Shown here: one piece after another, positions 656 to 27,009 of the stretch | Numbering within the stretch: the first letter of the stretch is position 1 | How the letters are laid out: each line of letters begins with the position of its first letter | Source: a virus | IMG/VR virus record: IMGVR_UViG_3300015371_000141 | Location: 1-27,150 of that record | DNA: 27,150 bases | Direction: 5' to 3' (one strand) | Made by a program: the position numbers and the translations under genes | Notes under the pieces: generated by a model | Database searches by the model: none | What the model was told of the DNA's origin: nothing | Seen by the model: only the letters and a program-made list of their open reading frames with translations

Positions 656-874
656 CTAGGGACGCTGGTCCGGCTTCAGCAAACAGCTCTCCACGATCTT
701 GGTCAGCAGCGCGTTCCGCTGTTCGCTGTTATGCGAGAACACCCAGCCGACCACCCCCAGGAACACGATGTTTAGGATGACCAAAAGCAAGAACGCGGGG
801 GGCAGGGCGCGGATCAGCTTTTCCGAGATCCCTGAGAGGATACCGGTCGCGGTGCTGGGCTGGGTCTCGGGCAT
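656..874 (-). CDS. small one-span membrane protein, holin-like candidate
   Basis: A 72-residue protein. The ATG at 874 is preceded by GGGAG at a normal distance; the frame is open further upstream but without a ribosome site. Residues about 27-46 are a strong hydrophobic segment (AFLLLVILNIVFLGVVGWVF), after a short polar N-terminus with a basic/amphipathic stretch (EKLIRAL) and before a charged tail with one Cys. Its first 61 bases lie inside the 3' end of the giant virion gene in another frame, so the two are translated from the same message. Small membrane proteins at the end of podophage ejection modules are often lysis proteins, but one span and the absence of a neighbouring endolysin leave holin as only one option; a spanin-like or virion-associated membrane protein is also possible. 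Coding status is well supported, function is not. Confidence 0.7.
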   Translation of the reverse strand: MPETQPSTATGILSGISEKLIRALPPAFLLLVILNIVFLGVVGWVFSHNSEQRNALLTKIVESCLLKPDQRP

Positions 875-3800
875 CGCGCCTGCTCCCGATAGGGTTCCAT
901 CGCATTGTAGTAGGACGCTCCGCCGACCACGCCGCCGGTCGCCATCGCACCGGTCTTGAGCCACCCCGGCAGACGCTGCATCACTGGGTTCATGGCACGG
1001 GCCAGAGGCACGATGGCGTCATCCACGAAGCCCCATGGGACGGACGCACCCGCACCGGTGCCACCCTCCGCCCCGGTGCCGTCGCCCTCTCCGGCGGTCA
1101 GCTTGTCGATGTTAGGCAGGATGTCGGTGTCAGGCGTGAGATCGTTCAACAGCTCGTCCACGTCGAGCGGTCCGCCGGCTGACAGTTTGGTGCCCTTGGG
1201 ACCGGTGATCATGTCGGCGACACCGGCGGCCGTGTTGGCGCTGGTGAGGTATTGCGCGGCCAGCCCGATCGGTGCGCGCAGCACCGGACCCCCGACGCTG
1301 GACAGCATGGTGGTCCCCAGCGCTGCCAGGGGGACACCCACGAGGTTGTACGCCGCGCGCACCTGATTATGGAACCGGGTGTTGGTCTCAGCGGGCTTGC
1401 CGTCCGCGCTGATCACCGGGGCCAGCAGGTTCTTCAGGTTGGCGAAAATGTAGTTCGGTCCAGCCCCCTCCAGCAGCGTCGATAGATCCTGGTTGTAGCG
1501 CAGCGAGGTCATCACCTGGATCAGCGGGTCGAACGTGCCGTTCAGCCCCGACCGCTGCACCGCGAGGCCCAGCAGGTATTCGTCCAGCGTGCCGGCCTCT
1601 GCGTTCTGGTTGAACTGCTCGGTGGCGAACAGGTATTGCCGGACCGTCGTGGTCAGCAGGGTCCCCAGCACCAGGGCACCCGCGAGCTTGATGGATTGCA
1701 CTGCCGCCGCCGTGCCACGCATCGCCGCGTTCAGCCCTGACGCTGCAACCCCATAGCCCTCTTCCCGGGCGATCCGATAGCCCTGTTCGGTCTTGGCGGT
1801 GACCCGGTCGAACAAGGGCAAGAGAATGTTACGTGTGAAACTATAGGCGAAGCCTTGCAGCTGGAAGCCCAGCCGGCCCAGCGGCGTGTTCGCCAGCGCG
1901 GGCCGGTCCATGCGGTAGCTCATCTGATAGCTGCGATCGGTGGCCCGGTTGAAATGCCGTGTGTAAAGCCCCGCCATCGGATCGCCGGTGAGATCCTCCA
2001 GCCGGGGGACCTGTCCGTTATGGCTTCTGATCCATTCGCCATATTGCTCGTGCAGCTGCGGCGGGATGCCCATCTCGTTGAAGTAGTTGTGCGCGTCCTC
2101 GATCTTGTATTTCGAGTTGCTGATCAGCTTGCGGGCCATCTCATCGGCCACCCAGTGGTTGGCGGTGAAGCTGGCCAGCCGTCCGCTTTCGGTCACCTGG
2201 GTCAGCCCGGTTGCCTTGTAGAACTTGCCCATGAAGCGGGCGAGCTGCGGGCTGTCGGCGTACTCGCCGCCAGAGCGGATGGATGTCGCATTGTCGATCA
2301 GCGAACTGGACAGCGCGCCGATCCACGCGGCGGTGCGCGCACGCTCATAGCTGTCCGCCGTGTGCATGACCTGACCGAACTGCGAGGCAAAGGCTTTCAG
2401 CCCGGCGCGCAGGCTGTTGTTGGCCAGACCGGTGTTGATCGGCTCCACCAGACCGTTCCACATCGCCCGGCTCATCAACATGGTGGACCCGAGTGCGTGG
2501 ACGTAATCCAGCGCCCGGTTGATGTTCTGCGGGATGCCCGTGCGGCCCCGCCCGGTGAGCCGTTCCTGCTGGTCCTTCAGCTTGTCGATGTGGCTGGATT
2601 TGACCCCCGCCTGTTCCGCCTCGCGGATCAACGCCTGGAACCGCTCGTTACCCGCACCGAACATCTCGGCGGACGTGGTCCTGCGCGCTGACGCCGAGAA
2701 GTAATCCGCCAGCAGGCTGGGCACGTCGGTGTGCAGAAAATCCTTCATGATGTCCTGCGAATACGCCGGCAGCTTGCGCTGTCGCAGGTAATCGGATTTC
2801 GGACCGACCGTGTCGAAATCATTGAACGCCCCGATATTGATCGCCGCGCGCCATTCACTCGCGGCCTGATCCGCGATGAACAGGCCCAGCGCGTCGTGAT
2901 GCTGTTCGGCGAGATCGATGGCGTGCTGGGTCAGCGCATCAAGCTGGGCCTGCATCCTGGCGATCTTCGCCGGGTCGGTCTCGGCTGCCAGCTTGCGTTC
3001 CAGCGCGGTCCGTGTGCGGAAGTTGCGCCGCAACTCGGTCATGCCACCGGCAAGATCGGCGCCCATCGTGTCGCGGACCGGCTTCGGGATCTGCCGATAC
3101 TTGTTGTAGAGCGCCAGGGGATCATCGCCGGGGGGACCGACGCGATCGTCAAACATGCGCTTGTGGAGTGTGGTGGCCTGCCGCATGAAGCCCTGCCGGT
3201 CAGCCTCCACCGCCGCATGGTTATACTTGATCGGCAGATACCCGGTCACCGCGTAGCCGATGTCCAGCCCCGCCCGGCGATTGAACTCGTATTCGTCGTT
3301 GAGCATGCGACGGATGTCGCCAGCGGCGCGTGTGACGCTGGCTGGCATAGCCTTGCCGTCGTAGGTGCTCTCGCCGGTCAGCAGCGCGTGACGCAGCTGA
3401 TCGTTCTGGAGCTTGGTGATCGAGGTGAGGTTCAGCCCGCTGCTGGTGAAGATGTGGTCCAGCGCATTGAGCTTGGCATTGCGGCGCTGGTGGCTCGTTT
3501 CCTCCCAGGTGTCCCCCACGAAGCGATGCATCCCTGCGGTCGGGGGACCCAGCAGATCCCGGATGACCTGGAGGGGACGTTGCGCGGCGGGGTTGTCCTT
3601 GTAGGTCTCGATCATGCTGTCCAGGAAGCCGCCCTCTGAGTAGGTCACATAGCGGGCGAACTCGGCAGCCCGCTGCATCCAGGTGAACCCCCTCGGATCG
3701 GGCTTGTTCTCGTCGTAGAGGCTCGCATTGCTCAGCCCCTGCCGCATGTCACGCAGCTGGCGCATGGTCTCCTGCATGGGCCGCGAGATGGACAGCCCGC

Positions 3801-6800
3801 GCGCCTGCTGGCTGGCATGGGGGGCCAGCATCAGGCGGGGGTCAGGTCTGCCGGTGTCCCCCGACCGCCGTGCCGGGCGGCCCGGGTAGAGACCCTCCTG
3901 GGCGAGCACGTTGTAGAACTCGTCCCAGGCCCTATGGATGTTGATGCGATCTTCCGCCTGCGGATAGATCGCCTTCATGATGTCTTCAAACTTGGACCCC
4001 GGCTGGTAGGTCTCGCTGCGGTAGCCCTCCGCCGGCTTGGCGAAACCACGGGGGTCCACGCCGGAACGCTCGGCGGCATAGCCCAGATGGCTTTCACCGG
4101 AGCGGGCCAGCATCTCGTAGATCGCGCCGAAATAGCCGGGGTCGCCGGTGAGCATCGCGCCTTCACGGAACCTGGTCAGCCGGGCGAGGGTCTCCGGGGC
4201 CATGCCACGCTCGATCACCTGAAGCCCCTGGCTGAGCTGCCCGGCCAGCGTGTGATTGCCCGCTGCTATCGCTTCGTCACGTGCCTTCTCCAGCTGTGCC
4301 ATGCGCAGGACCAGACCCTGTTTGTCGAACAGCATCGTGTTGACGATGTTGGCGAAAGCCTTTTCCACCGGGTTGGTGATGTTCAGGCCCTGTGTCCGGG
4401 CCACCGCCGACAACAGGGGTATGCCGGTCGTGGTCTTCATCAGGCGGTCCAGCAGATCGTGGTCCAGGGCGTGTATCCACTCGTGCCCGAATGCGTTCAC
4501 CCGCTCATGGGTGAGGTGGATCGAGCGTGTGGCGAACTGGTAGAATGCGTCAGCCGTCTTGTTCTCCCCGGTGAACTTGCCGGACAGGATGAGGGCCACC
4601 TTGCCCTGCAACCCGATCAGATCATGCGGCAGGTTGAGCACGGCGATCATGTCCTGGGCCGCGCGATGCAGATCCATCAGCACGTTCAGCCCCTGCCGGG
4701 GGGCCGTGCCCTTCTCCACGACCACGTCCCTGAAATCGGAGGTCTCCGGGCGCGTCATCTGATCGCGCACGATGTTGATCTGCTTCTCCACCGGCAGGCT
4801 GGTGGCGACATCGGGATCGAGGCCGGCGTCCGCGAACACCTTCTCGTAGACCGAGGTCCCGTCATTGTAGCGATACTCGTTCATCGTGCGTGCGGCATCC
4901 GGCTCGCGCGGCGGCAGCGGCCGTCGCGGCTCGGTCTGCTTGGCAGCACTGCGCCGTGCCCAGCGGTTGGAGCGGGCTTCCAGCGTCTCAGGCACCGGTT
5001 CCTGGCCCGTGACCAGATACTCGCGGGTGCGGATCAGCCGCTGCCGTCTGCCCTCCAGGGTGTCGATCTCGCGGGCCAGCTTGGTCTCGCCGCGAAAGCC
5101 CTTCTGGACCGGCAGCAGGCGTTTTTCACGCAAGGAGGTTTCCAGCCTGCTGATCTGCGCGTTAACCGCGTTGAGAGGCTCCTGGTCCCCGGGATGGAAG
5201 GCTCTCGCGAAGGGCCTGCCTTCGCCGGGGGGTAGGGTGGGCTGGTCCACGACGGTGTACCTGTCCCCCGTGCCAACCCCAGTTTCCGTGGGAGGTTCCT
5301 CGGCGAAGGGCGTCGGCGCCCGCAACCCGCCTTCTTCCTCACCCGGCAGGGGCGTGTCGAACTCAGGCCGGTCGGATTGCTCAGTGAGCCGGGCCAGTTC
5401 CTCGTCGGTATAGAGCCGGTCGGCCTCGCTTACCGGCCGACCTCGACCGGCTTCATCCACGGGAAGAGGCTCGGTTGGACGAGGGGCTTCCGCTGGCTGT
5501 GCAGCACGAGCCTCATCTTGGGTTCCGCCTTCAACTCTTGCACGTAGTGTTGTGTCAGCAGGTGGCGGTTCGTCGGGGGCACGCGGAACGATTGGGTTTT
5601 CTGTTGTGTCCCTGACATTTCCTGTGACATTTTGTTGTGTTCCTTGTTGTGCGCGAGGGGGGATCTCCGATGAGGGAAGCGGTCGGTCGGTGGGTGGCGG
5701 CGTGGCGGACGTATCGAGCGGAGCGGGCGTGGTCTCGGTTCCAGGAGGGCGCTCAGCTGAAACAGGCTCAGTACGAGGCGTCCCGGTCTCAGTGGACGGA
5801 GCTTCAGCATCGGCTGCGGGTGGAACAGATCGTGGCGAAACTACGGCTTCTGGGGGAGGACCCCCCGCCTGATCTGACCCAACGGGAGCTGGAGACGTGC
5901 CTGGAGGCAGCTCAGCTGGCGCACCGCCAGCAGCAGTGGGAGGCGCAGACGGCGGCTGATCAGGAGAAGGCGGCGGCTCCTGTTCGGTCAGCGGAGGTGG
6001 TGACACTACCTCGTAGCGAGGTTCCCCCGGCACAGGCTGACCCGCGTCTGGCGGGACCTCCGTCCCAGGTGGCGTGACAGTTTCGTCAACGCCGGGTTTT
6101 CCGGTGGGTGGGACATCCTCCGCAAGGCCGGGCCTGTGGGGTCCCCGGAATACCCGCTGTCCCCCGTGAAGCGCCGCGCTGACACCCAGGCCGCCGATCA
6201 CGTCCTGCGCCGCGCCGGTTACCAGTTCCTCGCCGGTCGGCATGGGTCCGCCGGTGATCAGCGGGTCCACTACCCGTGACGTGGTGCCCACGGCCGGCGA
6301 GGTCACCGCGTTCTCGAACAGCATCCTCCCGATGATCGATTTGATCGGGGTCAGGCCGAAGAGCGGCGCCGTCATGCCCATGATGCCGCCCTGCACGGCG
6401 GCCGAGGAATAGGCGTAATCCACCGCCTCGTCGTGCTCCAGGCCGCGCGCCCGGGCTTCGTCGTAGGCCGGCACCAGCCGCTGGGCAAAGGCTGTGGCGC
6501 CCATGCCCAGCGCGCCACCGCCAAGGGTGCCCGCGACCACCCCGGGAGGGCCGAACATCGCCCCGCCTGCCGCGCCGCCTGCCGCCCCGGTCGCCAGACC
6601 AGCCACCATGCTGGGCAGGCCCGACACCACACCCTCGCCGATCTGGCCCCCGAAACTCAGGTTGGGCTGTTCGGTCTCAGGCTGATCGGTGAACGCATGA
6701 CCGGTCACCAGCCGGCCCAGGTTGCTCAGCGTGCTTTGGGCACCATGCGCCATGCCGCCGAAGAACCCGGTGGTTGGTTGTTGTTGTGGTGGTTGTGGTT

Positions 6801-6996
6801 CTTCCTCTTGCGCGGGTGGGGCCACCACCTCGTAGCGGTTGTTTACGGCGGGAGTTGGTTGCGGGGCCGGAAGGGGACCGGCCTGGGCCACCTGAGACGG
6901 CTGGGCCACCACCTCGTAGCGCGCGTTTTCCTCGTCGGGCTGACCACCGCTCAGCCGCCGGGCCTGGGGAGCCACAAGATCCAGGAGATCGCTCAC
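814..6996 (-). CDS. giant virion/ejected protein with zincin motif and PLxRFG-type segment (T7 gp16 position)
   Basis: A 2060-residue protein, by far the largest here. Residues about 76-230 are Gly/Ala-rich with glycine-zipper-like hydrophobic stretches that could insert into membranes. Residues about 290-700 are a Pro/Thr/Ala/Glu-rich, probably disordered region. A short motif recurs: RYEVV at 26-30, 54-58 and 327-331, and RYTVV at 579-583. HEWIHALDH at 838-846 contains HExxH and resembles the zinc-peptidase-like domain of large polyvalent phage proteins. A mostly helical region follows to about residue 1700, then PLGRLGFQLQGFAYSF at 1705-1720, matching the PLxRFG signature of very large podophage proteins, then a hydrophobic segment (about 1750-1785). 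The ATG overlaps the stop of the transglycosylase gene by 4 bases. By order it takes the place of T7 gp16, the long ejected protein that spans the cell envelope, with the transglycosylase domain moved to its own gene. The ejection role is inferred from order and architecture; proteolytic activity is a prediction from one motif. Confidence 0.85.
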   Translation of the reverse strand: MSDLLDLVAPQARRLSGGQPDEENARYEVVAQPSQVAQAGPLPAPQPTPAVNNRYEVVAPPAQEEEPQPPQQQPTTGFFGGMAHGAQSTLSNLGRLVTGHAFTDQPETEQPNLSFGGQIGEGVVSGLPSMVAGLATGAAGGAAGGAMFGPPGVVAGTLGGGALGMGATAFAQRLVPAYDEARARGLEHDEAVDYAYSSAAVQGGIMGMTAPLFGLTPIKSIIGRMLFENAVTSPAVGTTSRVVDPLITGGPMPTGEELVTGAAQDVIGGLGVSAALHGGQRVFRGPHRPGLAEDVPPTGKPGVDETVTPPGTEVPPDAGQPVPGEPRYEVVSPPPLTEQEPPPSPDQPPSAPPTAAGGAPAELPPGTSPAPVGSDQAGGPPPEAVVSPRSVPPAADAEAPSTETGTPRTEPVSAERPPGTETTPAPLDTSATPPPTDRPLPSSEIPPRAQQGTQQNVTGNVRDTTENPIVPRAPDEPPPADTTLRARVEGGTQDEARAAQPAEAPRPTEPLPVDEAGRGRPVSEADRLYTDEELARLTEQSDRPEFDTPLPGEEEGGLRAPTPFAEEPPTETGVGTGDRYTVVDQPTLPPGEGRPFARAFHPGDQEPLNAVNAQISRLETSLREKRLLPVQKGFRGETKLAREIDTLEGRRQRLIRTREYLVTGQEPVPETLEARSNRWARRSAAKQTEPRRPLPPREPDAARTMNEYRYNDGTSVYEKVFADAGLDPDVATSLPVEKQINIVRDQMTRPETSDFRDVVVEKGTAPRQGLNVLMDLHRAAQDMIAVLNLPHDLIGLQGKVALILSGKFTGENKTADAFYQFATRSIHLTHERVNAFGHEWIHALDHDLLDRLMKTTTGIPLLSAVARTQGLNITNPVEKAFANIVNTMLFDKQGLVLRMAQLEKARDEAIAAGNHTLAGQLSQGLQVIERGMAPETLARLTRFREGAMLTGDPGYFGAIYEMLARSGESHLGYAAERSGVDPRGFAKPAEGYRSETYQPGSKFEDIMKAIYPQAEDRINIHRAWDEFYNVLAQEGLYPGRPARRSGDTGRPDPRLMLAPHASQQARGLSISRPMQETMRQLRDMRQGLSNASLYDENKPDPRGFTWMQRAAEFARYVTYSEGGFLDSMIETYKDNPAAQRPLQVIRDLLGPPTAGMHRFVGDTWEETSHQRRNAKLNALDHIFTSSGLNLTSITKLQNDQLRHALLTGESTYDGKAMPASVTRAAGDIRRMLNDEYEFNRRAGLDIGYAVTGYLPIKYNHAAVEADRQGFMRQATTLHKRMFDDRVGPPGDDPLALYNKYRQIPKPVRDTMGADLAGGMTELRRNFRTRTALERKLAAETDPAKIARMQAQLDALTQHAIDLAEQHHDALGLFIADQAASEWRAAINIGAFNDFDTVGPKSDYLRQRKLPAYSQDIMKDFLHTDVPSLLADYFSASARRTTSAEMFGAGNERFQALIREAEQAGVKSSHIDKLKDQQERLTGRGRTGIPQNINRALDYVHALGSTMLMSRAMWNGLVEPINTGLANNSLRAGLKAFASQFGQVMHTADSYERARTAAWIGALSSSLIDNATSIRSGGEYADSPQLARFMGKFYKATGLTQVTESGRLASFTANHWVADEMARKLISNSKYKIEDAHNYFNEMGIPPQLHEQYGEWIRSHNGQVPRLEDLTGDPMAGLYTRHFNRATDRSYQMSYRMDRPALANTPLGRLGFQLQGFAYSFTRNILLPLFDRVTAKTEQGYRIAREEGYGVAASGLNAAMRGTAAAVQSIKLAGALVLGTLLTTTVRQYLFATEQFNQNAEAGTLDEYLLGLAVQRSGLNGTFDPLIQVMTSLRYNQDLSTLLEGAGPNYIFANLKNLLAPVISADGKPAETNTRFHNQVRAAYNLVGVPLAALGTTMLSSVGGPVLRAPIGLAAQYLTSANTAAGVADMITGPKGTKLSAGGPLDVDELLNDLTPDTDILPNIDKLTAGEGDGTGAEGGTGAGASVPWGFVDDAIVPLARAMNPVMQRLPGWLKTGAMATGGVVGGASYYNAMEPYREQARCPRPSPAPRPVSSQGSRKS

Positions 6997-10820: not shown

Positions 10821-11732
10821 TTAGGCTCTGTTGAACGGCGAGGGGCTGCCCAGGCCCGCCGCCTTGTAAAGATTGTTCTGTTGCAGCCCGCCCAGGTAGC
10901 TCCCGGCAGAGTTCAGCACGCTGCCGAAGATGGACCCCAGCGTGCTTACCGTAGGCACCGCGTTGAGCGACGCGGCGACATCCCCCGCCTGATTGGTGAT
11001 CCCCGAGATCGACTGTCGCTGGGTTTGCAGCTGGTTCCCCACGGTCCCGAGATCGCCGCCCGCAATCGGTGAACCAATGCTCTCCGCGTTGCGCACCTGA
11101 TCCAGCAGGCTCTGCTTGGTGTTCGCCACATTGGTCCGCAGCGTGTTGGCTTGGTTCTCCGCCGTGTCGGTCTGGTCAGCCAGTGTGCGGCCCTCCAGCT
11201 CGCTCATCAGCCCGAACTTGTTGACCAGTGACTGTGACCCGGTCAGCCCGCGCCGTGCCGCGTCGAACGTCACCTCTTTGCTGGCCTCGCGCTTCTGCTG
11301 AGCGAGCTGGTCCTGGACCTTGGCCATGTAATCGCCGGTGTAGGCTTTGAAGTAATCCGGCGTGAACCTGGAGAACGCCTGATCGATCTGGCCTTGCCCC
11401 TCGGACAGAAGCTGTGCCCGCCCGGTGTCGTAGGTGGTCTGGCGGGTCGCCTGATCCGCCGCCTCCTGCCGCTGACGTTCATCCAGCGCTTTCTGGTAAT
11501 CGAACTGCTGCTGATTGAACGTGTTCTGCTTGTCGGCGATCTCCTGTTGCGCCTTCAGCTGCTTGTCCGCCAGCTCCTGCTGCACCGTGGTCTGGTATTC
11601 CGAAACCGACGTGATGCCGCGTTTCAGATAGGACAGCGGGACACCGGCCTCGCCGACCATGATGCTCCCGGTCTCCGGGTCCCATTGCTGCACGTAGGGG
11701 GATTTGCTGCCGCCACTGCCGCTAAAGCACAT
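10821..11732 (-). CDS. Gln-rich coiled-coil virion protein (MCFS start)
   Basis: A 303-residue protein starting MCFSGSGGSKSPYVQQWDP. The ATG at 11732 overlaps the upstream stop (TGATG) and follows an AGAGGTG ribosome site; the frame extends nine codons further upstream without one. Residues about 45-130 are a highly charged, Gln-rich coiled coil (for example QQELADKQLKAQQEIADKQ). The middle part contains EVTFDAARRGLTGSQS and the last third is Gly/Ser/Asn-rich with a possible hydrophobic segment (LGSIFGSVLNSAGSYLGGL). It lies between the gp13-like and gp14-like genes. The Met-Cys start and composition resemble the next gene, so it is probably another internal or ejection protein. Specific function unknown. 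Confidence 0.7.
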   Translation of the reverse strand: MCFSGSGGSKSPYVQQWDPETGSIMVGEAGVPLSYLKRGITSVSEYQTTVQQELADKQLKAQQEIADKQNTFNQQQFDYQKALDERQRQEAADQATRQTTYDTGRAQLLSEGQGQIDQAFSRFTPDYFKAYTGDYMAKVQDQLAQQKREASKEVTFDAARRGLTGSQSLVNKFGLMSELEGRTLADQTDTAENQANTLRTNVANTKQSLLDQVRNAESIGSPIAGGDLGTVGNQLQTQRQSISGITNQAGDVAASLNAVPTVSTLGSIFGSVLNSAGSYLGGLQQNNLYKAAGLGSPSPFNRA

Positions 11733-12253
11733 CAGGACACCTCTTCGTGGCACCGCCACAATTTCCTGGGTTGATAGGCGTCGTTCAGCCGCAGGACATA
11801 GAGGATGTAATCCTCCAGGTTCCGCCCATACTGGTGTAGATACGCCTCTTTGTGCGCGCCCAGCACGTCAAGCCAGCGGCGGCTTTGCAGGTTCGTCGCC
11901 GAGACATAAGCCTCAGCCCGGTGATAGCCGGCGTTCTGCAAGGCGGGGATCACCCAGCGCTGCACCCAAGCCGTCATCGGCCGGATCGTGTAGCGCCACC
12001 GGTCGGTGCCGAACGCGGCGGCGATGACCACTCCCGGACGTACCGGCGTGGCCCCGCAGAGCGCCACCGGCTCGTCCTTCCAGGACCAAATCCGCCAGAG
12101 CGCGCCGCCGGACAGCATGACATCGGCGATCAGCTCGTCCTCGTTGTCATCCCATCGCACCGCGAAGATCTCTTCACGGTCGCGCTGACGCATGTTGCGA
12201 ACGATGTGGCTCACCGCGTCTTCGGTCACCCTGTGCTCAACGATGGCGCTCAT
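11732..12253 (-). CDS. GNAT-fold virion protein, T7 gp13-like
   Basis: A 173-residue protein with an acetyltransferase-like layout: an N-terminal part ending in WSWKDEPVALCGATPV, then WRYTIRPMTAWVQRWVIPAL, and a C-terminal block AYVSATNLQSRRWLDVLGA followed by two further strands. This last block matches the part of GNAT proteins that reads x-N-x-x-x-x-x-x-L-x-x-x-G-F. The same pattern is found in T7 gp13, internal virion protein A, which has the fold without known acetyl-transfer activity and is needed for virion assembly. No clear acetyl-CoA pyrophosphate loop (Q/RxxGxG/A) is seen, supporting a structural or assembly role. The start overlaps the nozzle gene stop by 4 bases (ATGA). It heads the ejection module, as gp13 does in T7. 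Confidence 0.7.
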   Translation of the reverse strand: MSAIVEHRVTEDAVSHIVRNMRQRDREEIFAVRWDDNEDELIADVMLSGGALWRIWSWKDEPVALCGATPVRPGVVIAAAFGTDRWRYTIRPMTAWVQRWVIPALQNAGYHRAEAYVSATNLQSRRWLDVLGAHKEAYLHQYGRNLEDYILYVLRLNDAYQPRKLWRCHEEVS

Positions 12254-15174: not shown

Positions 15175-16254
15175 TCAGGCGATGTCCACCACGAGAGCGG
15201 AGTTGACCTGTTGCGCAACCATTTGGCCGGTATGCGTCATTGATTTGTACATTACGAACTGGTTATAAGGCCGCGCCGGGGTGAAACGATGATCCCACTC
15301 CCCCTCTTGTTTCATGAGGTAGATGTGACGCGGGTCCCACCAGTAGGCACGCTTGGCCTTGCCGAGATCATCCAGGGTCGGATCGTATTCGATGGTGGTG
15401 CTGCCGAACTTGAGCTGACCCATGGACCCATCCTGCGTGCCCGTGAAGCCGCTCATCGTGTAGTTGCCATTGGCACGCAGCTCGACCTCCATCGCGGCGA
15501 TGAAATCGCTGCCAGCGAGGCATTTGGTCGGACGCCCGCCGTAACGGATCAGCTGACGATACTCCTGCTGCAAGAACTGCAAGAGCGCCCCGCCATTTGA
15601 CGGATCGGACGTGATCGGACCCCGTCCGCCCGCCGCCCCGGCTGCCGCTGTCGCCGCGCGGTTGCGCCACCAGAGATTGGTGCGCGCCAGCCCGCCGAGA
15701 GTGCCGGTGGCGGGGTTGTCCACGATGATGCTCTGCATACCGGCCAGCGCCTTCGCGTCGGCGACACCGTCGCCCCACAGCAGCGCGTTCATCGACCGTG
15801 CATACATCTCCCCGAAATCCTCCAGCTTGTCAGCCAGGAGGTTGACCAGGACCGTGACCTCGCGGTCGCTGTGGTTCGAAGTGGTGGACCCGTTCCCCAT
15901 GTCATCGGTGACGGAGATGCCGTCGATCTTCAGTTCCGTGTGGGTCAGCGTGAGGCCCATGTGGTGTTCGCGCCACGGATAGTTCACCCGCTTGATATTG
16001 GCAGGCGTGTAGAACGCCACCGTATCATTGTGGGTGTATCCCACGACGTGGTCGTTGGTGCCGCCAGCGCCGTAATCACCTTTGACCGCCAGCGAGATGT
16101 TACCCTTGCCGCCGGGGAAACTCTTGGCGCTGTTTTCAGCCCAGCGTAGGAGCGGCTTGGCCTGGATACTCTGTTTGAACGTGTCTCCTTTGTTCATGTA
16201 GAAATCGAGCGAGGCATTGGCGATGTTCGTGAGTTCGCCAGCTGTGAACGCCAT
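15175..16254 (-). CDS. major capsid protein
   Basis: A 359-residue protein. Identification rests on position directly after the scaffold gene, on size, and on the sequence pattern of N4/P22-type podophage coat proteins: residues about 45-75 read SFPGGKGNISLAVKGDYGAG, then NIKRVNYPWREHHMGLTLTHTELKIDGISV (about 93-122), a region rich in long helices (VLVNLLADKLEDFGEMYARSM), and a C-terminal part naming ordered strands (LKFGSTTIEYDPTLDDLGKAKRAYWWDP). An HK97-type fold is expected for this group but not proven here. The ATG has AGGA upstream at a wide spacing and is 15 bases from the scaffold stop. It assembles into the icosahedral shell around the scaffold. Confidence 0.85.
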   Translation of the reverse strand: MAFTAGELTNIANASLDFYMNKGDTFKQSIQAKPLLRWAENSAKSFPGGKGNISLAVKGDYGAGGTNDHVVGYTHNDTVAFYTPANIKRVNYPWREHHMGLTLTHTELKIDGISVTDDMGNGSTTSNHSDREVTVLVNLLADKLEDFGEMYARSMNALLWGDGVADAKALAGMQSIIVDNPATGTLGGLARTNLWWRNRAATAAAGAAGGRGPITSDPSNGGALLQFLQQEYRQLIRYGGRPTKCLAGSDFIAAMEVELRANGNYTMSGFTGTQDGSMGQLKFGSTTIEYDPTLDDLGKAKRAYWWDPRHIYLMKQEGEWDHRFTPARPYNQFVMYKSMTHTGQMVAQQVNSALVVDIA

Positions 16255-18301: not shown

Positions 18302-18463
18302 TCAGAACCGTCCGCTGAACAGCAGTATCAGCACGATGACGAGGACTATCAGCCCGATGCCGCCGAACCCGCTGGGGCCGTAGTAGCCGCCGCGGTAGCC
18401 GTAATAGCCACCAAAACCACCGAAGAGCACGATGATGACGATGAGCAGCAGAAGCAGGTTCAT
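18302..18463 (-). CDS. small Gly/Tyr-rich membrane protein
   Basis: A 53-residue protein: a hydrophobic segment (residues 2-14, NLLLLLIVIIVLF), a Gly/Tyr-rich hinge (GGFGGYYGYRGGYYGP) and a second hydrophobic segment (about 37-50, IGLIVLVIVLILLF). Two short membrane spans flank a small loop, similar in layout to the small proteins of the DUF3309 type. The ATG has AGGTGG upstream and overlaps the preceding stop by 4 bases. Could be a holin or an unrelated small membrane protein; no charged catalytic residues. Confidence 0.7.
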   Translation of the reverse strand: MNLLLLLIVIIVLFGGFGGYYGYRGGYYGPSGFGGIGLIVLVIVLILLFSGRF

Positions 18464-18645
18464 GGTCCACCTCGAATGATGAACCCGAACACCCGCCAGC
18501 CAAGCAGGAAGAACAGCACGAAGCCGACCAGCCAACCGCCACGGTTCCAGTACGGCTGGCCCTGCGGCGTGAAGTTGCCGAACGCCCAGAAGATGATCCA
18601 GATCAGCATGATCAACCAGAAGACGAACCCGATATCCATCGTCAT
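18460..18645 (-). CDS. small two-span membrane protein
   Basis: A 61-residue protein with two hydrophobic segments (residues about 5-23, IGFVFWLIMLIWIIFWAFG, and 38-56, WLVGFVLFFLLGWRVFGFII) joined by a polar loop FTPQGQPYWNRGG. The ATG overlaps the upstream stop by 4 bases, and its own stop overlaps the next gene. Size and two-span layout fit a class II holin, but similar small proteins near terminase/portal genes of podophages have no known role. Function unassigned. Confidence 0.7.
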   Translation of the reverse strand: MTMDIGFVFWLIMLIWIIFWAFGNFTPQGQPYWNRGGWLVGFVLFFLLGWRVFGFIIRGGP

Positions 18646-18830: not shown

Positions 18831-21145
18831 GGCGTCGGCATCCCCGGCCGGCCCATGGCGCCCCTGGGCATGCCGCCGCCCGTGCCGGGGGCGTTGCCGT
18901 TCCGTCCGAAGACCTGGAGCGGCGGAGGCCGGGGACCGATGCTGCCGGGTGGGTTGGCTGCGGGCGCGTTGTTGGGACCCGCTGCGGCCTGCGCGTTGGG
19001 GTCATTGGCGGGTCCAGGCGGACGCGGCGGTCCCTTGCCTGCACCCCCGCCACCCTCATCACCCTTGCCTTCGTCCTCGCCGGGTGCGCCTGGGGGCGGC
19101 TGGCCGGCCTGCTGGTTGAGCGCCTCGATCGAGGGAACCCCTTCGGCGAAGGCTTCCGTCAGGTCGATGTCGTCACCCATGCGGCGGATCAGCTGGCGGG
19201 CCAGCCATTCGGGGGACACCCCGGGGACCCTCTGGAGCAGGGGGACCAGCTGGACCAGCATCTGCACGTCCTCCTGCCGGTTCGGCGGACCATTGGACCC
19301 CGCGTCCACCTCCAGCCAGACGTTTTCCGCCATGGTCTGCTTGTCGATCTCAGGCCAGACCGCGCCGGGTCCGACGATCTGCTGGACCATCGGACCCGAG
19401 ACGTTCAACACGAGGATCTCGCTTGCCGCACGCGCCATGTCGGTCAGCACGTCGTTGAGATCATCAATCACGCTGGTCGTGTCGGTGTTCTGCGAGAACT
19501 CGGCGACCGACACCTCGGTCGCGGTCGCACCGCTCGTGGTCCCCTGGTCCGCCTGATCGCTGCCCAGCACCCGCAGAAGGTCTTCAAACACCGGGGACGT
19601 GTCGTACACGGCGGGGTCGATCGGCGGCATCTTCACCGGTTGCAACACATCATCGATCTTTTGCCCGGGAGACAGCGCGTTCAATTCCAGGAGCGCGTTC
19701 GCCGGGTGGGTACGCAGCTTGTCCTTGTCCGGTTCCTCCAGGATACCGGCGGCCACCGCAATCTTCGGGCGGTTGGCGCGACGATGCTCGCGCAGACCCT
19801 GTCGCGCCCGGTTCAGTTCGAGCTGCATGTCGCGGATCAGGTCGATGTCGGACGGCGGATACAGCCGCTTGTCGCTGTAGCCCTCGTTCATCACCACCGC
19901 GAACCAGGGATAGAAGCGCTGGCTCTCGGCCTCCGGCGCGGCAGGGGGCTGGAGCCAATCCGGATACCCGTCGCACACCACATAGACCGTGCCGTCTTTA
20001 CGATTGTAGATCTCCCACACGCAGCCGCGCGTGGTGCTGTCCCCGTCATGCGAGCCGTCACCGCCGCCCGCCATGTAATGGTCGGACGTGTCGCCGGTGC
20101 GGTTGAGGCAGTTGCCGGTCTCGTCGTAGGCGGTATAGGAACAATCCACGTCCACCATGTAGATCTCTTCGATCTCGTCGGGGGACAGGATGTATTCCTG
20201 GGCCACCCAATCGGCGCCGAGAAAGCCTCGCAAGGTCTTGCACTTTGGGTCCGGGATGATCGCGGTGCTGTCGGGATAATCGAAGGTGAGGCCCTCGCGC
20301 ACCACGATCTGGCCTTCCGCCGTCAGTGTCTGGATGGCGATGCGCAGGCTTTCGGCATCGGCGCTGTCGTATTCGATCTCCCCATCGGCGAGATCGCCGG
20401 CCAGCCGCTCGATATTGGCCAGACGCTCGCTGAAATCGCTGATCCGGCGTTCGATTTCCGGATGCATCTTCATGGCGCGCTGAAAGCCCAGCTTGACGTA
20501 GCCCACGGCGGTGATCACCGCGCGGCGCACCGTCATTTTCATGCAGGATTTGAAGCTGTGGTTCTGTTCGTCCACGTTGTAATCGTACAGGATCTTCAGC
20601 GTGTTCCCGACGCGATCCATCATCTGTTCCCACTGATGGACCATCGCCGCGTCCTGCATGATCGCCGCGCTCTGCGGGTCGGGCGGCATCATGTAGGTGG
20701 TCGCCAGCATCATCGATTGCTGTGCCTGCATCAGGCTCTGCGCCGTGCCGTCCCAGGTGGTCGCGATGAGCTTGGGCTTGCGCTTCGGCTTCATCGTCGG
20801 GTTGTTCGGGTAGAGTTCGGCGGTGCGCTGCATCACGTGACGCAGGCACACATTGGCGACGTAGCGATCGTCCCGCTTGCCGTCCGAGGGCGGCTCCGGC
20901 CACTGCTCGCCGTTCACGAACGCCATGTTCTCGCGCATGCGCTCGAAATCGACCTTCCATTTCGCCTTGGCCCGACGCACCCGGTCACACCAGCGGGTGA
21001 CCAGCTTCTTGACCTGATCAGGGACCTCCGGTCTCTCGCGGTTGACGAAGGTGTTGCCCGCCGTGGGATCGGCCGGCGGTGCCATCCCCATCGCGGCGGG
21101 ATTGCCCATGCCGGGGTCCATCGGCGGCGTCATCAGATCCGACAT
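18827..21145 (-). CDS. portal protein
   Basis: A 772-residue protein. Its N-terminal part (residues about 40-110) has the P22-portal pattern: a helix RWCDRVRRAKAKWKVDFERM, then NGEQWPEPP (78-86) and RYVANVCLRHVMQRTAELYPNNP. Long helical and beta segments follow, including SSHYG-free wing regions and WVAQEYILSPDEIEEIYMVD, and the stem/crown helices (DIDLIRDMQLELNRARQGLREHRRA). The last 95 residues are Gly/Pro-rich and probably disordered. The ATG at 21145 shares one base with the TerL stop (TGATG) after a G-rich site; a GTG one codon earlier is possible. It forms the dodecameric ring for DNA entry and pairs with TerL. Confidence 0.88.
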   Translation of the reverse strand: MSDLMTPPMDPGMGNPAAMGMAPPADPTAGNTFVNRERPEVPDQVKKLVTRWCDRVRRAKAKWKVDFERMRENMAFVNGEQWPEPPSDGKRDDRYVANVCLRHVMQRTAELYPNNPTMKPKRKPKLIATTWDGTAQSLMQAQQSMMLATTYMMPPDPQSAAIMQDAAMVHQWEQMMDRVGNTLKILYDYNVDEQNHSFKSCMKMTVRRAVITAVGYVKLGFQRAMKMHPEIERRISDFSERLANIERLAGDLADGEIEYDSADAESLRIAIQTLTAEGQIVVREGLTFDYPDSTAIIPDPKCKTLRGFLGADWVAQEYILSPDEIEEIYMVDVDCSYTAYDETGNCLNRTGDTSDHYMAGGGDGSHDGDSTTRGCVWEIYNRKDGTVYVVCDGYPDWLQPPAAPEAESQRFYPWFAVVMNEGYSDKRLYPPSDIDLIRDMQLELNRARQGLREHRRANRPKIAVAAGILEEPDKDKLRTHPANALLELNALSPGQKIDDVLQPVKMPPIDPAVYDTSPVFEDLLRVLGSDQADQGTTSGATATEVSVAEFSQNTDTTSVIDDLNDVLTDMARAASEILVLNVSGPMVQQIVGPGAVWPEIDKQTMAENVWLEVDAGSNGPPNRQEDVQMLVQLVPLLQRVPGVSPEWLARQLIRRMGDDIDLTEAFAEGVPSIEALNQQAGQPPPGAPGEDEGKGDEGGGGAGKGPPRPPGPANDPNAQAAAGPNNAPAANPPGSIGPRPPPLQVFGRNGNAPGTGGGMPRGAMGRPGMPTP

Positions 21146-22710
21146 CACCAGCCCCCGCTGCCGAAGCCCACGCGCACGGAGCGCTCGGCCTGTTCACGTT
21201 GCAGCTTCAGCCAGCCAAAGGTGCCCTCGACCTTCTCCGGCTCGCGCTGCTGCACACTCATGCCGACCTGCAAGGTCAGGCCCAGCCCGATATAGGCAAG
21301 CGTATCCACAAAATCGTCGTGCGCGTCGAACGGAAAGCGCAGCATCTGTTCGCGTGCCGCCGGCCACCAGGGCGCGCGTTCCGGGAAATGCACCCGCTGC
21401 ATGGACATCCGGCCCTGAATGGATTGCGCGCGGGTCTGCTTGTCGGCGATCGGCTGCATCTCGATCAGCGTGCAGAAAGTTTGAGTTTCCAGCATGCGTT
21501 TGCGCAAAAAGGGTCCGATGGATTTGCTGATATGCGACCGCTCAGCCCACCAGAAGAGCGGCTTGTAGGCGCGCATCATGCGCAACATCGCCTCGGTGGT
21601 CTGTTCGGCGGTCATGTTGCGCCAGATCAGGTCGGGCAGCACCCAAAGATGGTCCTTGGCGTCCACGCCGACCACCATCAGACAGGTCTTGTCGGCGATC
21701 TGCTTGAGCGACACCGCGTGATCGGACGCCGCGTAGTAGCGCAGATTGGTCGGCAGATCGTTGGGCCGATAGGTGTTCAGCCAGTTGACGGAAAAGAACG
21801 TGCCACCTGCGGGGGACGGCTTGCCCTGGTAGAGTGCGCTGAACCCCCGCTCATCCCGCCGCTGGACCCCCAGCAGGAACTCGCGGCCAAACCTGCCGGG
21901 CCACAGGGCCTCGCCCTCGCGACGACGCAAGGCGTCCTTGCCATCCGCGAGCGCCAGCGCCGGGAGATCGATGATCTTCCACTCGGCGGCTTCCTCCGGG
22001 TCGTAGTAGCTGTTCTGCGGATCGGTGAGCCGGCCCACGAGGTCATCCTGGTGCCAACGGGTCTGGATCAACATGATCCGCCCGCTCTCGTCCATGAGAC
22101 GGGACGCGATGACCTGGGTGAACCACGTCCAGAGGGTGTCCCGGATGGTGGGGCTGTCGGCTTCCTGGCGGTCTTTCAACGGATCATCGATGACCAGCAC
22201 GTCACCGCCGCGCCCGGTGATCGTGCCACCTCGGCCGACGAAGGCGAGGATGCCGCCCTGCGTGGTCTCCAGCCGATCGGAGGCTTGGCTGTCATCCTTC
22301 AGGATGGCGTTCGGGAACACCTGTGCATACGCCGGGGATTGCATGATGTCGCGCACGCTGCGCCCGATGTCCTGGGAGAACTTCTCGTTGTAGGTGCCGA
22401 AAATCAGGCTGAGATGCGGGTTCTTGCCGGTGAACCACGCGGGGAACATCTTGCTGGCGAGCTGGGTCTTGCCATGTCGTGGGGGAAGCGAAATGATCAG
22501 CCGCTTGTAATGGCCCTTCTCCAGCTCTTCCAGCGCGGCGCAGATCACGCGATGGAACCGCTGCGCGTCATAGCGCGAGTAATCCGGGTCCGCGTGATAG
22601 TTCGGCACCGGCATCATCAGCCGTGTGAACGCAAGAATGTCCTTCTCCGCGTCCAGCACGGCGATGAGCCGCTTGAGGACCAGCTCGTATCTGGTCTGGT
22701 CCGGGGTCAC
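21145..22710 (-). CDS. terL: terminase large subunit (packaging ATPase/nuclease)
   Basis: A 521-residue protein with both expected domains. ATPase: Walker A LPPRHGKT (75-82), Walker B VLVIDD (171-176) and a coupling motif LIQTRWH (214-220). Nuclease: an RNase-H-like set with Asp330 in YAASDHA, Glu390 in WWAERSH and the cluster DAHDDFVDT (462-470), suiting metal coordination. It translocates DNA into the prohead through the portal and cuts the concatemer. The start is GTG at 22710, overlapping the upstream stop (GTGA); no better ATG is nearby. Translation is coupled at both ends. No classical small subunit is recognisable next to it. Confidence 0.93.
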   Translation of the reverse strand: MTPDQTRYELVLKRLIAVLDAEKDILAFTRLMMPVPNYHADPDYSRYDAQRFHRVICAALEELEKGHYKRLIISLPPRHGKTQLASKMFPAWFTGKNPHLSLIFGTYNEKFSQDIGRSVRDIMQSPAYAQVFPNAILKDDSQASDRLETTQGGILAFVGRGGTITGRGGDVLVIDDPLKDRQEADSPTIRDTLWTWFTQVIASRLMDESGRIMLIQTRWHQDDLVGRLTDPQNSYYDPEEAAEWKIIDLPALALADGKDALRRREGEALWPGRFGREFLLGVQRRDERGFSALYQGKPSPAGGTFFSVNWLNTYRPNDLPTNLRYYAASDHAVSLKQIADKTCLMVVGVDAKDHLWVLPDLIWRNMTAEQTTEAMLRMMRAYKPLFWWAERSHISKSIGPFLRKRMLETQTFCTLIEMQPIADKQTRAQSIQGRMSMQRVHFPERAPWWPAAREQMLRFPFDAHDDFVDTLAYIGLGLTLQVGMSVQQREPEKVEGTFGWLKLQREQAERSVRVGFGSGGW

Positions 22711-24163: not shown

Positions 24164-25831
24164 TCAAGCTCCAGCGTTGCGGGCCTGTTGCGCGTCAGCG
24201 AGTTGCTGCACCGCCCGCCACAGGGTGGCGCAGAGGTGCAAGGGGTTGAGCATGAGTGTGGCGGCTTCATCCGGCAGCTCCGCGACCGCCGAAGGGAGGC
24301 CCTTGCGGACCTCGTCCGCCAGCAGCGTGGCTTCCAGGTGCATCGGCTCGGCATCCGGCATCATACGCATGTCAGCCGTATAGACAGGCGTGTTGCGCAC
24401 CACAGCGAGGGCATCGAGGGTGCAGGCCAGGATGTTGGTCTTCCGCCGCCGGTCGGAGATCGTCGTGGTCCAGCCTGCGATCTGCGAGAGATTATTGAAC
24501 CACGCCACGCCGTAGCCGGTGGAGCTGTTCAGCGTGAACCTATCCACCCGGGCGTTGCCGCCATCAGACCATGACGCGATGAGGTTGCGGCTGGTGTCGC
24601 CGCTCAGGTTGGTCATGAAGCGGTAGCCGTCCCACCAGATGCCGATCGGCGGCTGACCCTGGAAGCTGATGCCCGTGTTGGTCTGCAAGGTGTTGTTCGA
24701 CGTGAGCGTGCCGTTGACGTTCAGGTTGCCGCTGACGCCAAGGTTACTATTGACCTGCAAGCTCCCGGTGACCGTGCCACCGGCCAGCGGCAGGTAGGTC
24801 CCACTGGCGTAGCTGACCACCCAGCTGGTCAGTGCCGCGTCGCCCTGGTAGCCGCCATCCACGTAGATATTGAGATTGCCGTTCCAGCCGAAGCTGAACC
24901 AGTGCCCGCCAAAGTTCTGGTAGTTGATCCCCAGCCCGCCAGCGAGGACGAAATTGTTCCTGACAGTGAGCTGCCCGCCACCGGACAGGTACATGTTGGA
25001 CACACCGGGGGCGTTCCAGCTGCGGTCGCCGTTGGTACCGTTCCATACGTCATACCAACCGGAACGATAGGACTGGTATTTGCTGCCGTTGCCGTCAACG
25101 GTGAACTGCCATTCCCATGAGTTGAAGCTGTTGGCGTAGAAAGCCGTGGTCGCGTACAGGTAGCGCCCGGAAAGCAGGTCCGCGTTGGCGTTGGTCGCGA
25201 GCGTGCCAGTCATTGTGTCACCCGACCGGAAGACACGCGTGTCGGTGTATTGCTTGGTCGCCGCGTACAAGGGACCGGGTGGGTCACCCACCAATTGCAG
25301 GTAACCAGTCAGCGTGCCCCCGCTAAGCGGCAGATAATTGGCACCCACATAAGCCCAGGTCGCGAAGGTCGCGTCCACATAGCTCCTGGTCGCGAAGGTC
25401 GCGTCCACGTAGCTCCGGGTCGCGAAGGTGGTGTCCGCGTAATCCTTGGTCACCGCCTGTAAGGGTGCCGTAGGCGGGCCAGACAGCATCAGCGGCCCGG
25501 TCATGATGCCGCCGCTCAAACGCAGATAGCGCGTATCGAGCGTGGAGAGGGAGGTGTACTGCTCCCAATCGGCGGCGGCGAACACCTTGGGCGCCAGCGG
25601 GGCCTTGGCCTTCCAGATATCACCGCCCTGGGTGACGAAATCTCCGGTGGCATATGACGCGGTCGCCGCGTGCCGGCGTATCGCCAGCAGGTCCTGTGCG
25701 GTCTTCGTGGGATCGATCATCATCAGGCGCTGGTCGGCGTAGTTGATGAACAGCTCGCCCACCTCACGTGTGGTCGCCGGGGGGTAGTAGTTGGTGACCG
25801 AAGATCGGTTGAGCTGGATGCGGCCGGTCAT
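24164..25831 (-). CDS. tail fibre/spike with C-terminal S74 self-cleaving chaperone
   Basis: A 555-residue protein. N-terminus MTGRIQLNRSSVTNYYPP is of the podophage fibre attachment type. Residues about 100-155 are repeated units such as TFATRSYVDA with PLSGGTLTG and GDTMTGTL motifs of trimeric fibres. A Gly/Asn/Tyr-rich beta body follows. The C-terminus carries the S74 intramolecular chaperone: SDRRRK with Ser459-Asp460 as the expected self-cleavage site, then helices (LLADEVRKGLPSAV, LHLCATLWRAVQQLADAQQ). The domain folds the trimer and is then cut off. The fibre binds the host receptor. I chose ATG at 25831, one base after the PEP-CTERM stop; a GTG at 25858 would give an extra nine residues starting MCFSAGG, resembling two other starts in this operon, so it is a real alternative. 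No strong ribosome site: probably coupled. Confidence 0.85.
   Translation of the reverse strand: MTGRIQLNRSSVTNYYPPATTREVGELFINYADQRLMMIDPTKTAQDLLAIRRHAATASYATGDFVTQGGDIWKAKAPLAPKVFAAADWEQYTSLSTLDTRYLRLSGGIMTGPLMLSGPPTAPLQAVTKDYADTTFATRSYVDATFATRSYVDATFATWAYVGANYLPLSGGTLTGYLQLVGDPPGPLYAATKQYTDTRVFRSGDTMTGTLATNANADLLSGRYLYATTAFYANSFNSWEWQFTVDGNGSKYQSYRSGWYDVWNGTNGDRSWNAPGVSNMYLSGGGQLTVRNNFVLAGGLGINYQNFGGHWFSFGWNGNLNIYVDGGYQGDAALTSWVVSYASGTYLPLAGGTVTGSLQVNSNLGVSGNLNVNGTLTSNNTLQTNTGISFQGQPPIGIWWDGYRFMTNLSGDTSRNLIASWSDGGNARVDRFTLNSSTGYGVAWFNNLSQIAGWTTTISDRRRKTNILACTLDALAVVRNTPVYTADMRMMPDAEPMHLEATLLADEVRKGLPSAVAELPDEAATLMLNPLHLCATLWRAVQQLADAQQARNAGA
25359..25448. repeat. 30-bp tandem repeat, three units, inside tail fibre
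   Basis: Units 25359-25388, 25389-25418 and 25419-25448. The first two differ at two positions; the third is more diverged. Each encodes ten residues of the YVDATFATRS type. The units keep the frame, so copy-number change would lengthen or shorten the fibre stalk without breaking it. Confidence 0.8.
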
Positions 25832-25832
25832 G

Positions 25833-26459
25833 TCATCGCCGCCGGCGCTGAAGCACACCCAGACCGAGAAGGCTCACACCGAGAAGCCCGAGAGTGCCCG
25901 GCTCCGGCACCGCGTTGGCGCCAAACGTGCCGGCTACACTGGAGGTGAAGCTACCGACCGTTTCATTATCGATGGTGAACGCGGGTGTGAGATTGGCGAA
26001 GCTGAAAGCGATCGAGCGTGGCAGCCCCAGCACCGTGATCACGTCGGATGTGAAATCGATCGTATCAGGCGGTGCGCCACTGGCGAGCACGCCACTGGTG
26101 CCTGAACCCAGCAATATGTCGGAAAACGTCCCGGACAGCAGATTGGTAGTGCCGTCCAGGATCGAAAAGCTTCCGGCATAGTGCTGAAACCCGCCGCCAC
26201 CCAAAGGCTGGGCTGTGTCGATCGAGGTGATGTTCAGATCGAAGAGAGCCGTTGTCGCCGGCAGGCCGATGATCTGCGTCACATCGACTGGCACGTCGGT
26301 CGCCGTGATCGTGGTGCTGGTGCCGCCGGCATTGGCCACCGCCGTGACGGTGTTCCCTGGGTCGGTCTGGCCGAATGTCAGGATCACGTCGGCCAGTGCC
26401 GGGACCGGTGTCGCCGCTGCCAGCACAGCTGCCGCCGCGATCGCAATACGGATGTGCAT
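25833..26459 (-). CDS. secreted PEP-CTERM protein
   Basis: A 208-residue protein. Residues 1-23 are a signal peptide (MHIR, an Ala-rich core, cleavage after PALA). The middle is low in charge and rich in Thr, Gly, Ser and strands (VILTFGQTDPGNTVTA, then DVPVDVTQIIGL, FQHYAGSFSILDGTTNLLSG). The C-terminus is a full PEP-CTERM signal: VPEPG (184-188), a hydrophobic helix (GLLGVSLLGLGVL) and RRRR at the end. Such proteins are exported by Sec and handled by exosortase in the envelope. The ATG at 26459 has a strong AGGAGT; a longer reading frame upstream is Arg/Pro-rich noise. The stop lies one base before the tail-fibre start, so it belongs to the phage operon. Host-derived cargo, surface modifier during infection, or virion protein are all possible. 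Confidence 0.85.
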   Translation of the reverse strand: MHIRIAIAAAAVLAAATPVPALADVILTFGQTDPGNTVTAVANAGGTSTTITATDVPVDVTQIIGLPATTALFDLNITSIDTAQPLGGGGFQHYAGSFSILDGTTNLLSGTFSDILLGSGTSGVLASGAPPDTIDFTSDVITVLGLPRSIAFSFANLTPAFTIDNETVGSFTSSVAGTFGANAVPEPGTLGLLGVSLLGLGVLQRRRR

Positions 26460-26529: not shown

Positions 26530-27009
26530 TTACTTCGGTTGCGGATAAGGCGGCAGACCCTGATCGGGTCGCAGTGATGGGTCCACGCTGACGTATTTCC
26601 AGCCGTGCCCCGGCGTATAGACAAGCATCCAGTAGGTCTGGCTGGCGATTGGATGCGTCGGGGCGCCGCCCTGTCCGCCCGGCAGCGTGTTATCCACGCC
26701 CGGCGGCGGGGTCGGCAGCGTGTTATCGACACCCGGCGGCAGCGTGTTGTCAGGCCGCATGGGCGGTGTCGGCAGGGTGTTGTCGGGGCGCCCGGGGCTG
26801 GGCCAGATCGTCCCCGGCGGTGTGCCCGGCGGGGCGATGACGATCGGATGGCTTGGCACCGGGGGCGGGAAGGTTCCCGGCGGTGGTGTCGGCAGACCCT
26901 GGTCGGGATAGGCGGGAGGCGTGGGTAACGTGTTATCGGGATAGCCGCCGCCGCCAAGACTGCCGGTCTCCACGTCGAGGACGCCGCCGGTTACATGAAC
27001 TCGTGTCAT
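26530..27009 (-). CDS. Pro-rich repeat protein of phage type
   Basis: A 159-residue protein. From residue 24 on it consists of short repeats such as PDNTLPTPP, PDQGLPTPP and VDNTLP, interrupted by PSHPIVIAPPGTPPGTIW (about 52-69). Near the C-terminus a compact piece, YWMLVYTPGHGWKYVSVDP, looks folded and could be a small binding domain; the end returns to PDQGLPPYPQ. I recall proteins with the same PDQGLP / HPI / GTPPGTIWP pattern in phages of GC-rich hosts, without known function. The ATG is preceded by a strong AGGAGA. Probably a virion or tail-associated protein. Confidence 0.75.
   Translation of the reverse strand: MTRVHVTGGVLDVETGSLGGGGYPDNTLPTPPAYPDQGLPTPPPGTFPPPVPSHPIVIAPPGTPPGTIWPSPGRPDNTLPTPPMRPDNTLPPGVDNTLPTPPPGVDNTLPGGQGGAPTHPIASQTYWMLVYTPGHGWKYVSVDPSLRPDQGLPPYPQPK

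Follow-up and report, generated by a model that had tools for sequence, protein, structure and literature searches.

What is a PEP-CTERM protein, the substrate of a sorting system so far described from bacterial cells, doing among the genes of a phage? The question is raised by a gene in the window, the whole stretch of DNA analysed here, which is one whole IMG/VR record, linear and 27,150 bases long, and probably a fragment. Nearly all genes of the window are read from the minus strand. They encode, in order, the Pro-rich protein, PEP-CTERM protein, tail-fibre-type protein, small genes, terminase, portal, scaffold-like, capsid, tail and internal proteins. The features discussed below are:

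25833–26459, minus strand: PEP-CTERM secreted-protein gene, 208 aa
26464–26471, minus strand: Shine-Dalgarno-like AGGAG region, minus-strand reading ACAGGAGTAAAGACATG
26530–27009, minus strand: Pro-rich repeat protein, 159 aa, with no Pfam or PHROG match
24164–25831, minus strand: tail-fibre-type protein with a weak C-terminal S74-like (endosialidase chaperone) match
21145–22710, minus strand: terminase large subunit, which marks the phage type
18827–21148, minus strand: portal protein, by profile match
15175–16254, minus strand: major capsid protein, podovirus type (NF033394, 238.9 bits, cut-off 80)
656–874, minus strand: small single-TM protein, ATG start inferred (longest ORF 656–964), with a weak PHROG membrane-protein match

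The PEP-CTERM gene starts with an ATG at 26459, with AGGAG 7 nt upstream, and its TGA at 25835–25833 is followed after a one-base gap by the tail-fibre ATG at 25831; the strong ribosome site and closely abutting stop codon described in an earlier note on this DNA are thus both present. The plus-strand reading of the same interval is not the gene. The protein consists of a signal peptide (residues 1–23), an all-beta core (24–183) and a VPEPG-TM helix-RRRR tail (184–208), with the N terminus MHIRIAIAAAAVLAAATPVPALA/DVILTFGQ... and the C-terminal end VPEPGTLGLLGVSLLGLGVLQRRRR. The MHIRIAIAAAAVLAAATPVPALA/D pattern, read from the sequence and seen likewise in homologues, is that of a Sec signal peptide. 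The tail has a PEP motif, a TM helix and a basic cluster at the extreme C terminus, and it scores above the curated cut-offs of both PF07589 (26.8 bits, cut-off 20.7) and TIGR02595 (22.6 bits, cut-off 16). A six-frame search of the record for such a tail matched this gene only, and none of 14 control genomes matched. In the AlphaFold2 model (mean pLDDT 86) there is an N-terminal helix at 3–15, an all-beta core and a single C-terminal helix at 188–207. Coordinates, profiles and model therefore agree with the signal peptide, beta body and tail that the earlier note had read; the note merely did not name the strand.

The terminase of the window has its closest isolated relative in Microcystis phage Mae-Yong1326-1 (57%). 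The neighbouring gene had been called an S74 fibre; a PHROG tail-fibre profile supports the fibre call (E 5.6e-9), while the S74 match itself is weak (Pfam 15.3 bits, cut-off 22). The description of the locus as a tail operon is a loose one, as the gene lies between the Pro-rich gene and the fibre, upstream of the terminase and portal genes.

Homologues of the PEP-CTERM protein were found in 69 other viral contigs. A first search gave three, with 65–66% identity over residues 25–187 of the window protein, and a window-type phage with a 41% homologue was reached via terminase relatives; profile rounds raised the number of IMG/VR contigs besides the window to 14, then 58, and finally 69. The homologues include the core, and those of full length begin with a signal-peptide-like segment and finish with VPEP..GLLGLG..RRR. 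PF07589 was matched by 28 of the 29 aligned members; the tail of L015 is degenerate and falls below the Pfam cut-off. The carriers are unrelated soil and water phages from many metagenomes, of at least eight types. They differ in their core genes and include the window type (terminase phrog_38), the L087 type (phrog_2), the L092 type (phrog_979, 41–45% GC) and the L109 type (phrog_9); further types are those of L085, L002, L137, L144 and others. PHROGs has no family for this protein.

The homologues are found beside terminase, portal, scaffold, major head, ejection, DNA-polymerase and primase genes, which bears out the claim that an exported PEP-CTERM protein is encoded by phages. In the L092-type phages and in L109 the gene lies between terminase and portal, and in L140 and L156 it follows the portal; L015 has it between portal and scaffold, L144 between the polymerase and primase genes, and in the window it precedes the fibre. 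A conserved placement next to S74 fibres, which the earlier note had envisaged, was not found – the site varies even among window-type phages, homologues adjoin terminase, portal, polymerase and other genes, and adjacency to an S74 fibre is particular to the window.

A scan of 84,980 species genomes, bacterial and archaeal, gave no genuine match; it used two short patterns from window-, L002- and L015-like members and would miss divergent members such as L085-like or L092-like relatives. Within that scope, and with 69 viral contigs on the other side, the gene is not a stray host gene, as the earlier note had argued, and the distribution is the reverse of the one that the note gave as refuting it, with homologues confined to bacterial chromosomes. 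The sole stretch retrieved by the scan, L096, was a chance match of 16 residues within a MutS-like ORF. Plasmids gave no match in tblastn searches with two members, and isolated phages gave one insignificant match to the window protein (E 0.1) and none to three other members. Foldseek comparison of the model with PDB and BFVD gave no match at E <= 0.001. The best VIA-align score (Z 8.2) was to small beta-barrels and was tied among unrelated Diels-Alderases, dirigent proteins and OmpA-like folds, within the stated background. Neither profile nor fold searches linked the core to any protein of known function.

The pairwise dN/dS of the PEP-CTERM genes is between 0.05 and 0.28, and the gene is under purifying selection. 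L140 and L143 have 89% identical residues in this protein and only 69% identical bases, with synonymous sites near saturation; the GC content of the two phages is 65% and 43%, respectively. Given these rates, the tail in 28 of 29 homologues and the conservation of the whole protein in 69 other contigs, the tail of the window protein is not a chance match.

The distribution of the gene is patchy. It is found in only one of 15 long window-type records, and window-type phages carry it at different sites and from different branches of the gene tree. On this tree, a quick one with long branches, the phage types need 26 changes (the minimum is 10), and the window-type carriers alone need four label changes, all forced by well-supported branches. 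Patchy presence, varied sites in related phages and the tree changes together indicate a phage-borne accessory gene that has been acquired repeatedly. The locus is best explained by a phage-specific accessory ("moron"-type) gene, carried among structural, packaging or replication genes or beside them. No integrase was found in 20 of the 22 carrier records searched and no resolvase in any of the 22, which fits mainly lytic phages; the contigs may be fragments, and missing genes are weak evidence.

No promoter was found in the window stretch or in L015, and terminator-like sites in these two were not above shuffles; L015 has a clean hairpin-T run 3' of its PEP-CTERM gene. Sigma-54/PrsR-type sites, known from bacterial PEP-CTERM genes, were not enriched upstream of the phage genes (2 matches, 1.25 expected). 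The gene downstream shares the strand of the PEP-CTERM gene in 51 of 57 loci, and in 26 of these 51 it starts within 5 bases or overlaps. With the strand shared and the spacing this tight, co-expression is likely.

Three-quarters of the loci (45 of 60) have at least one neighbour that is a one-TM, Pro-rich or beta-helix-like protein gene. In 32 of 60 loci a small one-TM gene stands no more than two genes from the PEP-CTERM gene; in the window some 25 kb separate the two, and the one-TM gene is at the opposite end of the record. This one-TM family has a conserved Cys near the C terminus, and its members adjoin the PEP-CTERM gene in L002, L085, L135 and others; it is possibly a partner or a holin-like protein, and it has no lysis annotation. 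A Pro-rich repeat protein is within two genes in 20 of 60 loci from unrelated phages, including the window, and is directly upstream in 14; in the window, too, it is the gene directly upstream. The Pro-rich proteins of the window, L085, L087, L141 and L144 have PDNTLP/PDQGLP repeats and a conserved C-terminal part. A beta-helix-like gene is within three genes in 13 of the 60 loci. The repetitive proteins upstream of the PEP-CTERM gene at L015:14088–15164, L113:8498–9649 and L123:7481–8659 have this pattern by sequence, and no accepted Pfam family.

Four of the 24 records searched with PF07589 (L113, L137, L159 and L160) have two PEP-CTERM genes. The second is closely behind the first, and its body is unrelated to that of the first and different in each phage. 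L159 and L160 are 82–90% identical in DNA around the second gene (L159:10613–11440; L160:4797–5492), with the body swapped between about 10622–11362 in L159 and 4809–5414 in L160; the 24-residue C-terminal tail is identical in protein. Swapped bodies with kept tails suggest that surface display is the selected trait. As a tentative extension, it is possible that phages of exosortase-bearing bacteria run a surface display on the host's exosortase, in which a conserved beta-domain protein and, in some phages, a second slot with unrelated exported bodies exchanged ahead of a constant sorting tail give each phage its own coat for the infected cell. In L113 (10685–11518) and L137 (2114–2971) the second proteins, whose bodies are unrelated, have a poly-proline segment ahead of the tail.

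No exosortase (PF09721) was found in any of the 18 phage records searched, so that the exosortase of the host would be needed. PEP-CTERM proteins are found in outer-membrane, exopolysaccharide-making bacteria that have EpsH/exosortase (PMC1569441). By analogy with that pathway, export and exosortase processing of the phage protein are probable, and with good confidence. The protein would cross the inner membrane by Sec and be kept anchored by the C-terminal helix and Arg cluster; the host exosortase would then cut at the VPEP motif, and the product would pass to the outer surface or into the exopolysaccharide matrix. There the beta-domain may give the infected cell an altered surface, most likely by masking or changing what incoming virions bind, and so could control re-adsorption or superinfection, including adsorption to debris after lysis. 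Surface remodelling by an accessory PEP-CTERM protein through the host exosortase is the best explanation of the gene, at somewhat less than an even chance. For mainly lytic phages, an exported protein most plausibly acts outside the infected cell, by limiting re-adsorption, changing the matrix or both. Control of adsorption or superinfection is the likeliest single purpose, proposed tentatively, and matrix remodelling is the next likeliest. That the core is conserved fits a specific partner better than a simple mask.

The protein resembles the substrates of bacterial PEP-CTERM/EpsH systems (Haft et al. 2006, PMC1569441) in its signal-peptide-like N terminus, short VPEP motif, TM helix and C-terminal Arg cluster, as well as in its environmental origin and a beta-rich body without known homologues. 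It differs in that the family is phage-encoded, often in tight order with phage genes, has no sigma-54-like upstream site above chance, and has no exosortase on the same genome as far as was found. A similar tripartite C-terminal tag, with an intramembrane protease and surface display, belongs to the MYXO-CTERM/myxosortase system as described in PMC11980579. Its profile matches the window protein weakly; the PEP-CTERM match is stronger, and the invariant Cys given there for MYXO-CTERM is missing. Among phage genes, the nearest likeness may be the lipoprotein Llp of T5, a superinfection-exclusion moron and thus also an accessory gene for an exported envelope protein. Surface-acting superinfection-exclusion morons of phages, such as T5 Llp, use lipoprotein or membrane anchors, whereas the route of the phage PEP-CTERM protein would be the exosortase tag.

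Several other readings of the gene were weighed against surface remodelling of this kind. Instead of blocking adsorption, the processed protein could act on the matrix itself, changing the cohesion of the exopolysaccharide and so making it easier for progeny to escape or to get to new cells in soil aggregates and biofilms. There are known links of PEP-CTERM proteins to exopolysaccharide loci (PMC1569441) and to the formation of flocs (Gao et al. 2018, cited in PMC12642866), and beta-helix-like genes are nearby in the 13 loci mentioned. For several members, the curated full-length PEP-CTERM family with the best score is also that of the flocculation protein PepA (NF033554), and the full-length floc_PepA profile weakly matches 28 of 29; the window protein scores 31.4 bits and members scanned singly at most 53.2, below the cut-off of 80. 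This homology, promising on full-length proteins, did not survive removal of the tail – of six members tested in this form, none matched PepA or any other NCBIfam family, so it is the tail that accounts for the link. Nor did the phage protein show an enzyme signature, and the matrix reading is doubtful as the main account. The one-TM neighbour could point to lysis instead, with the PEP-CTERM protein acting unprocessed, as a periplasmic protein anchored in the inner membrane, together with the small TM protein. That neighbour is frequent (32 of 60 loci), and its stop or start codon often overlaps that of the next gene, which speaks for such a pairing. Yet an uncleaved anchor would not need the PEP motif, which is kept; the TM gene of the window is about 25 kb distant; some phages have the PEP-CTERM gene beside polymerase and primase; and the TM gene has no lysis annotation. 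A role in lysis or as an envelope accessory is thus improbable.

Less probable still is that a substrate made late in infection saturates the exosortase and blocks sorting of the host's surface proteins, the body being unimportant. Such a decoy is consistent with the lack of an exosortase on the phage records and with two substrates in some phages, but it would need neither the purifying selection nor the core conserved across phage types. The earlier note had also suggested that the protein is carried on virions. The window gene does adjoin the fibre gene, but this position is not conserved, and the protein has a signal peptide and a TM tail; the signal peptide makes carriage the least likely of the roles proposed there, and it is very unlikely overall. 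That the gene is a host insertion or an assembly artefact might be supposed, since PEP-CTERM proteins are otherwise known from bacteria (PMC1569441), but the family's presence in so many viral contigs from many metagenomes, and the lack of a genuine bacterial match in the pattern-limited scan, leave it scarcely credible.

No earlier report of a phage PEP-CTERM family was found in the open-access literature, to which the search was limited. Both parts were already known, PEP-CTERM substrates on one side and phage accessory genes for envelope proteins on the other; what appears to be new is their union as a widespread phage family. Conserved, mobile substrates specific to phages would mean that phages exploit the PEP-CTERM/exosortase system. 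The family offers a way into the surface function of PEP-CTERM display, and the gene is a likely marker of exosortase-bearing, exopolysaccharide-producing hosts for many uncultivated soil phages.

A few other parts of the window are of potential interest. The first 660 or so bases (1–660) have no similarity to the related loci compared and include a tRNA-Thr(GGT) at 402–475 on the plus strand; this may be either a phage-borne tRNA or a host flank. The minus-strand gene at 814–6996 encodes a putative ejection protein of 2060 aa; its HEWIH (HExxH-type) motif could belong to a metallopeptidase domain. An acetyltransferase-like protein is encoded within the virion gene cluster (11732–12253, minus strand), and the gene in the same position in Microcystis phage Mae-Yong1326-1 is annotated as an N-acetyltransferase. 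At 18302–18639, also on the minus strand, two very small proteins are encoded, both hydrophobic and with segments rich in Gly and Tyr, which are present in many of the phages that carry PEP-CTERM genes.
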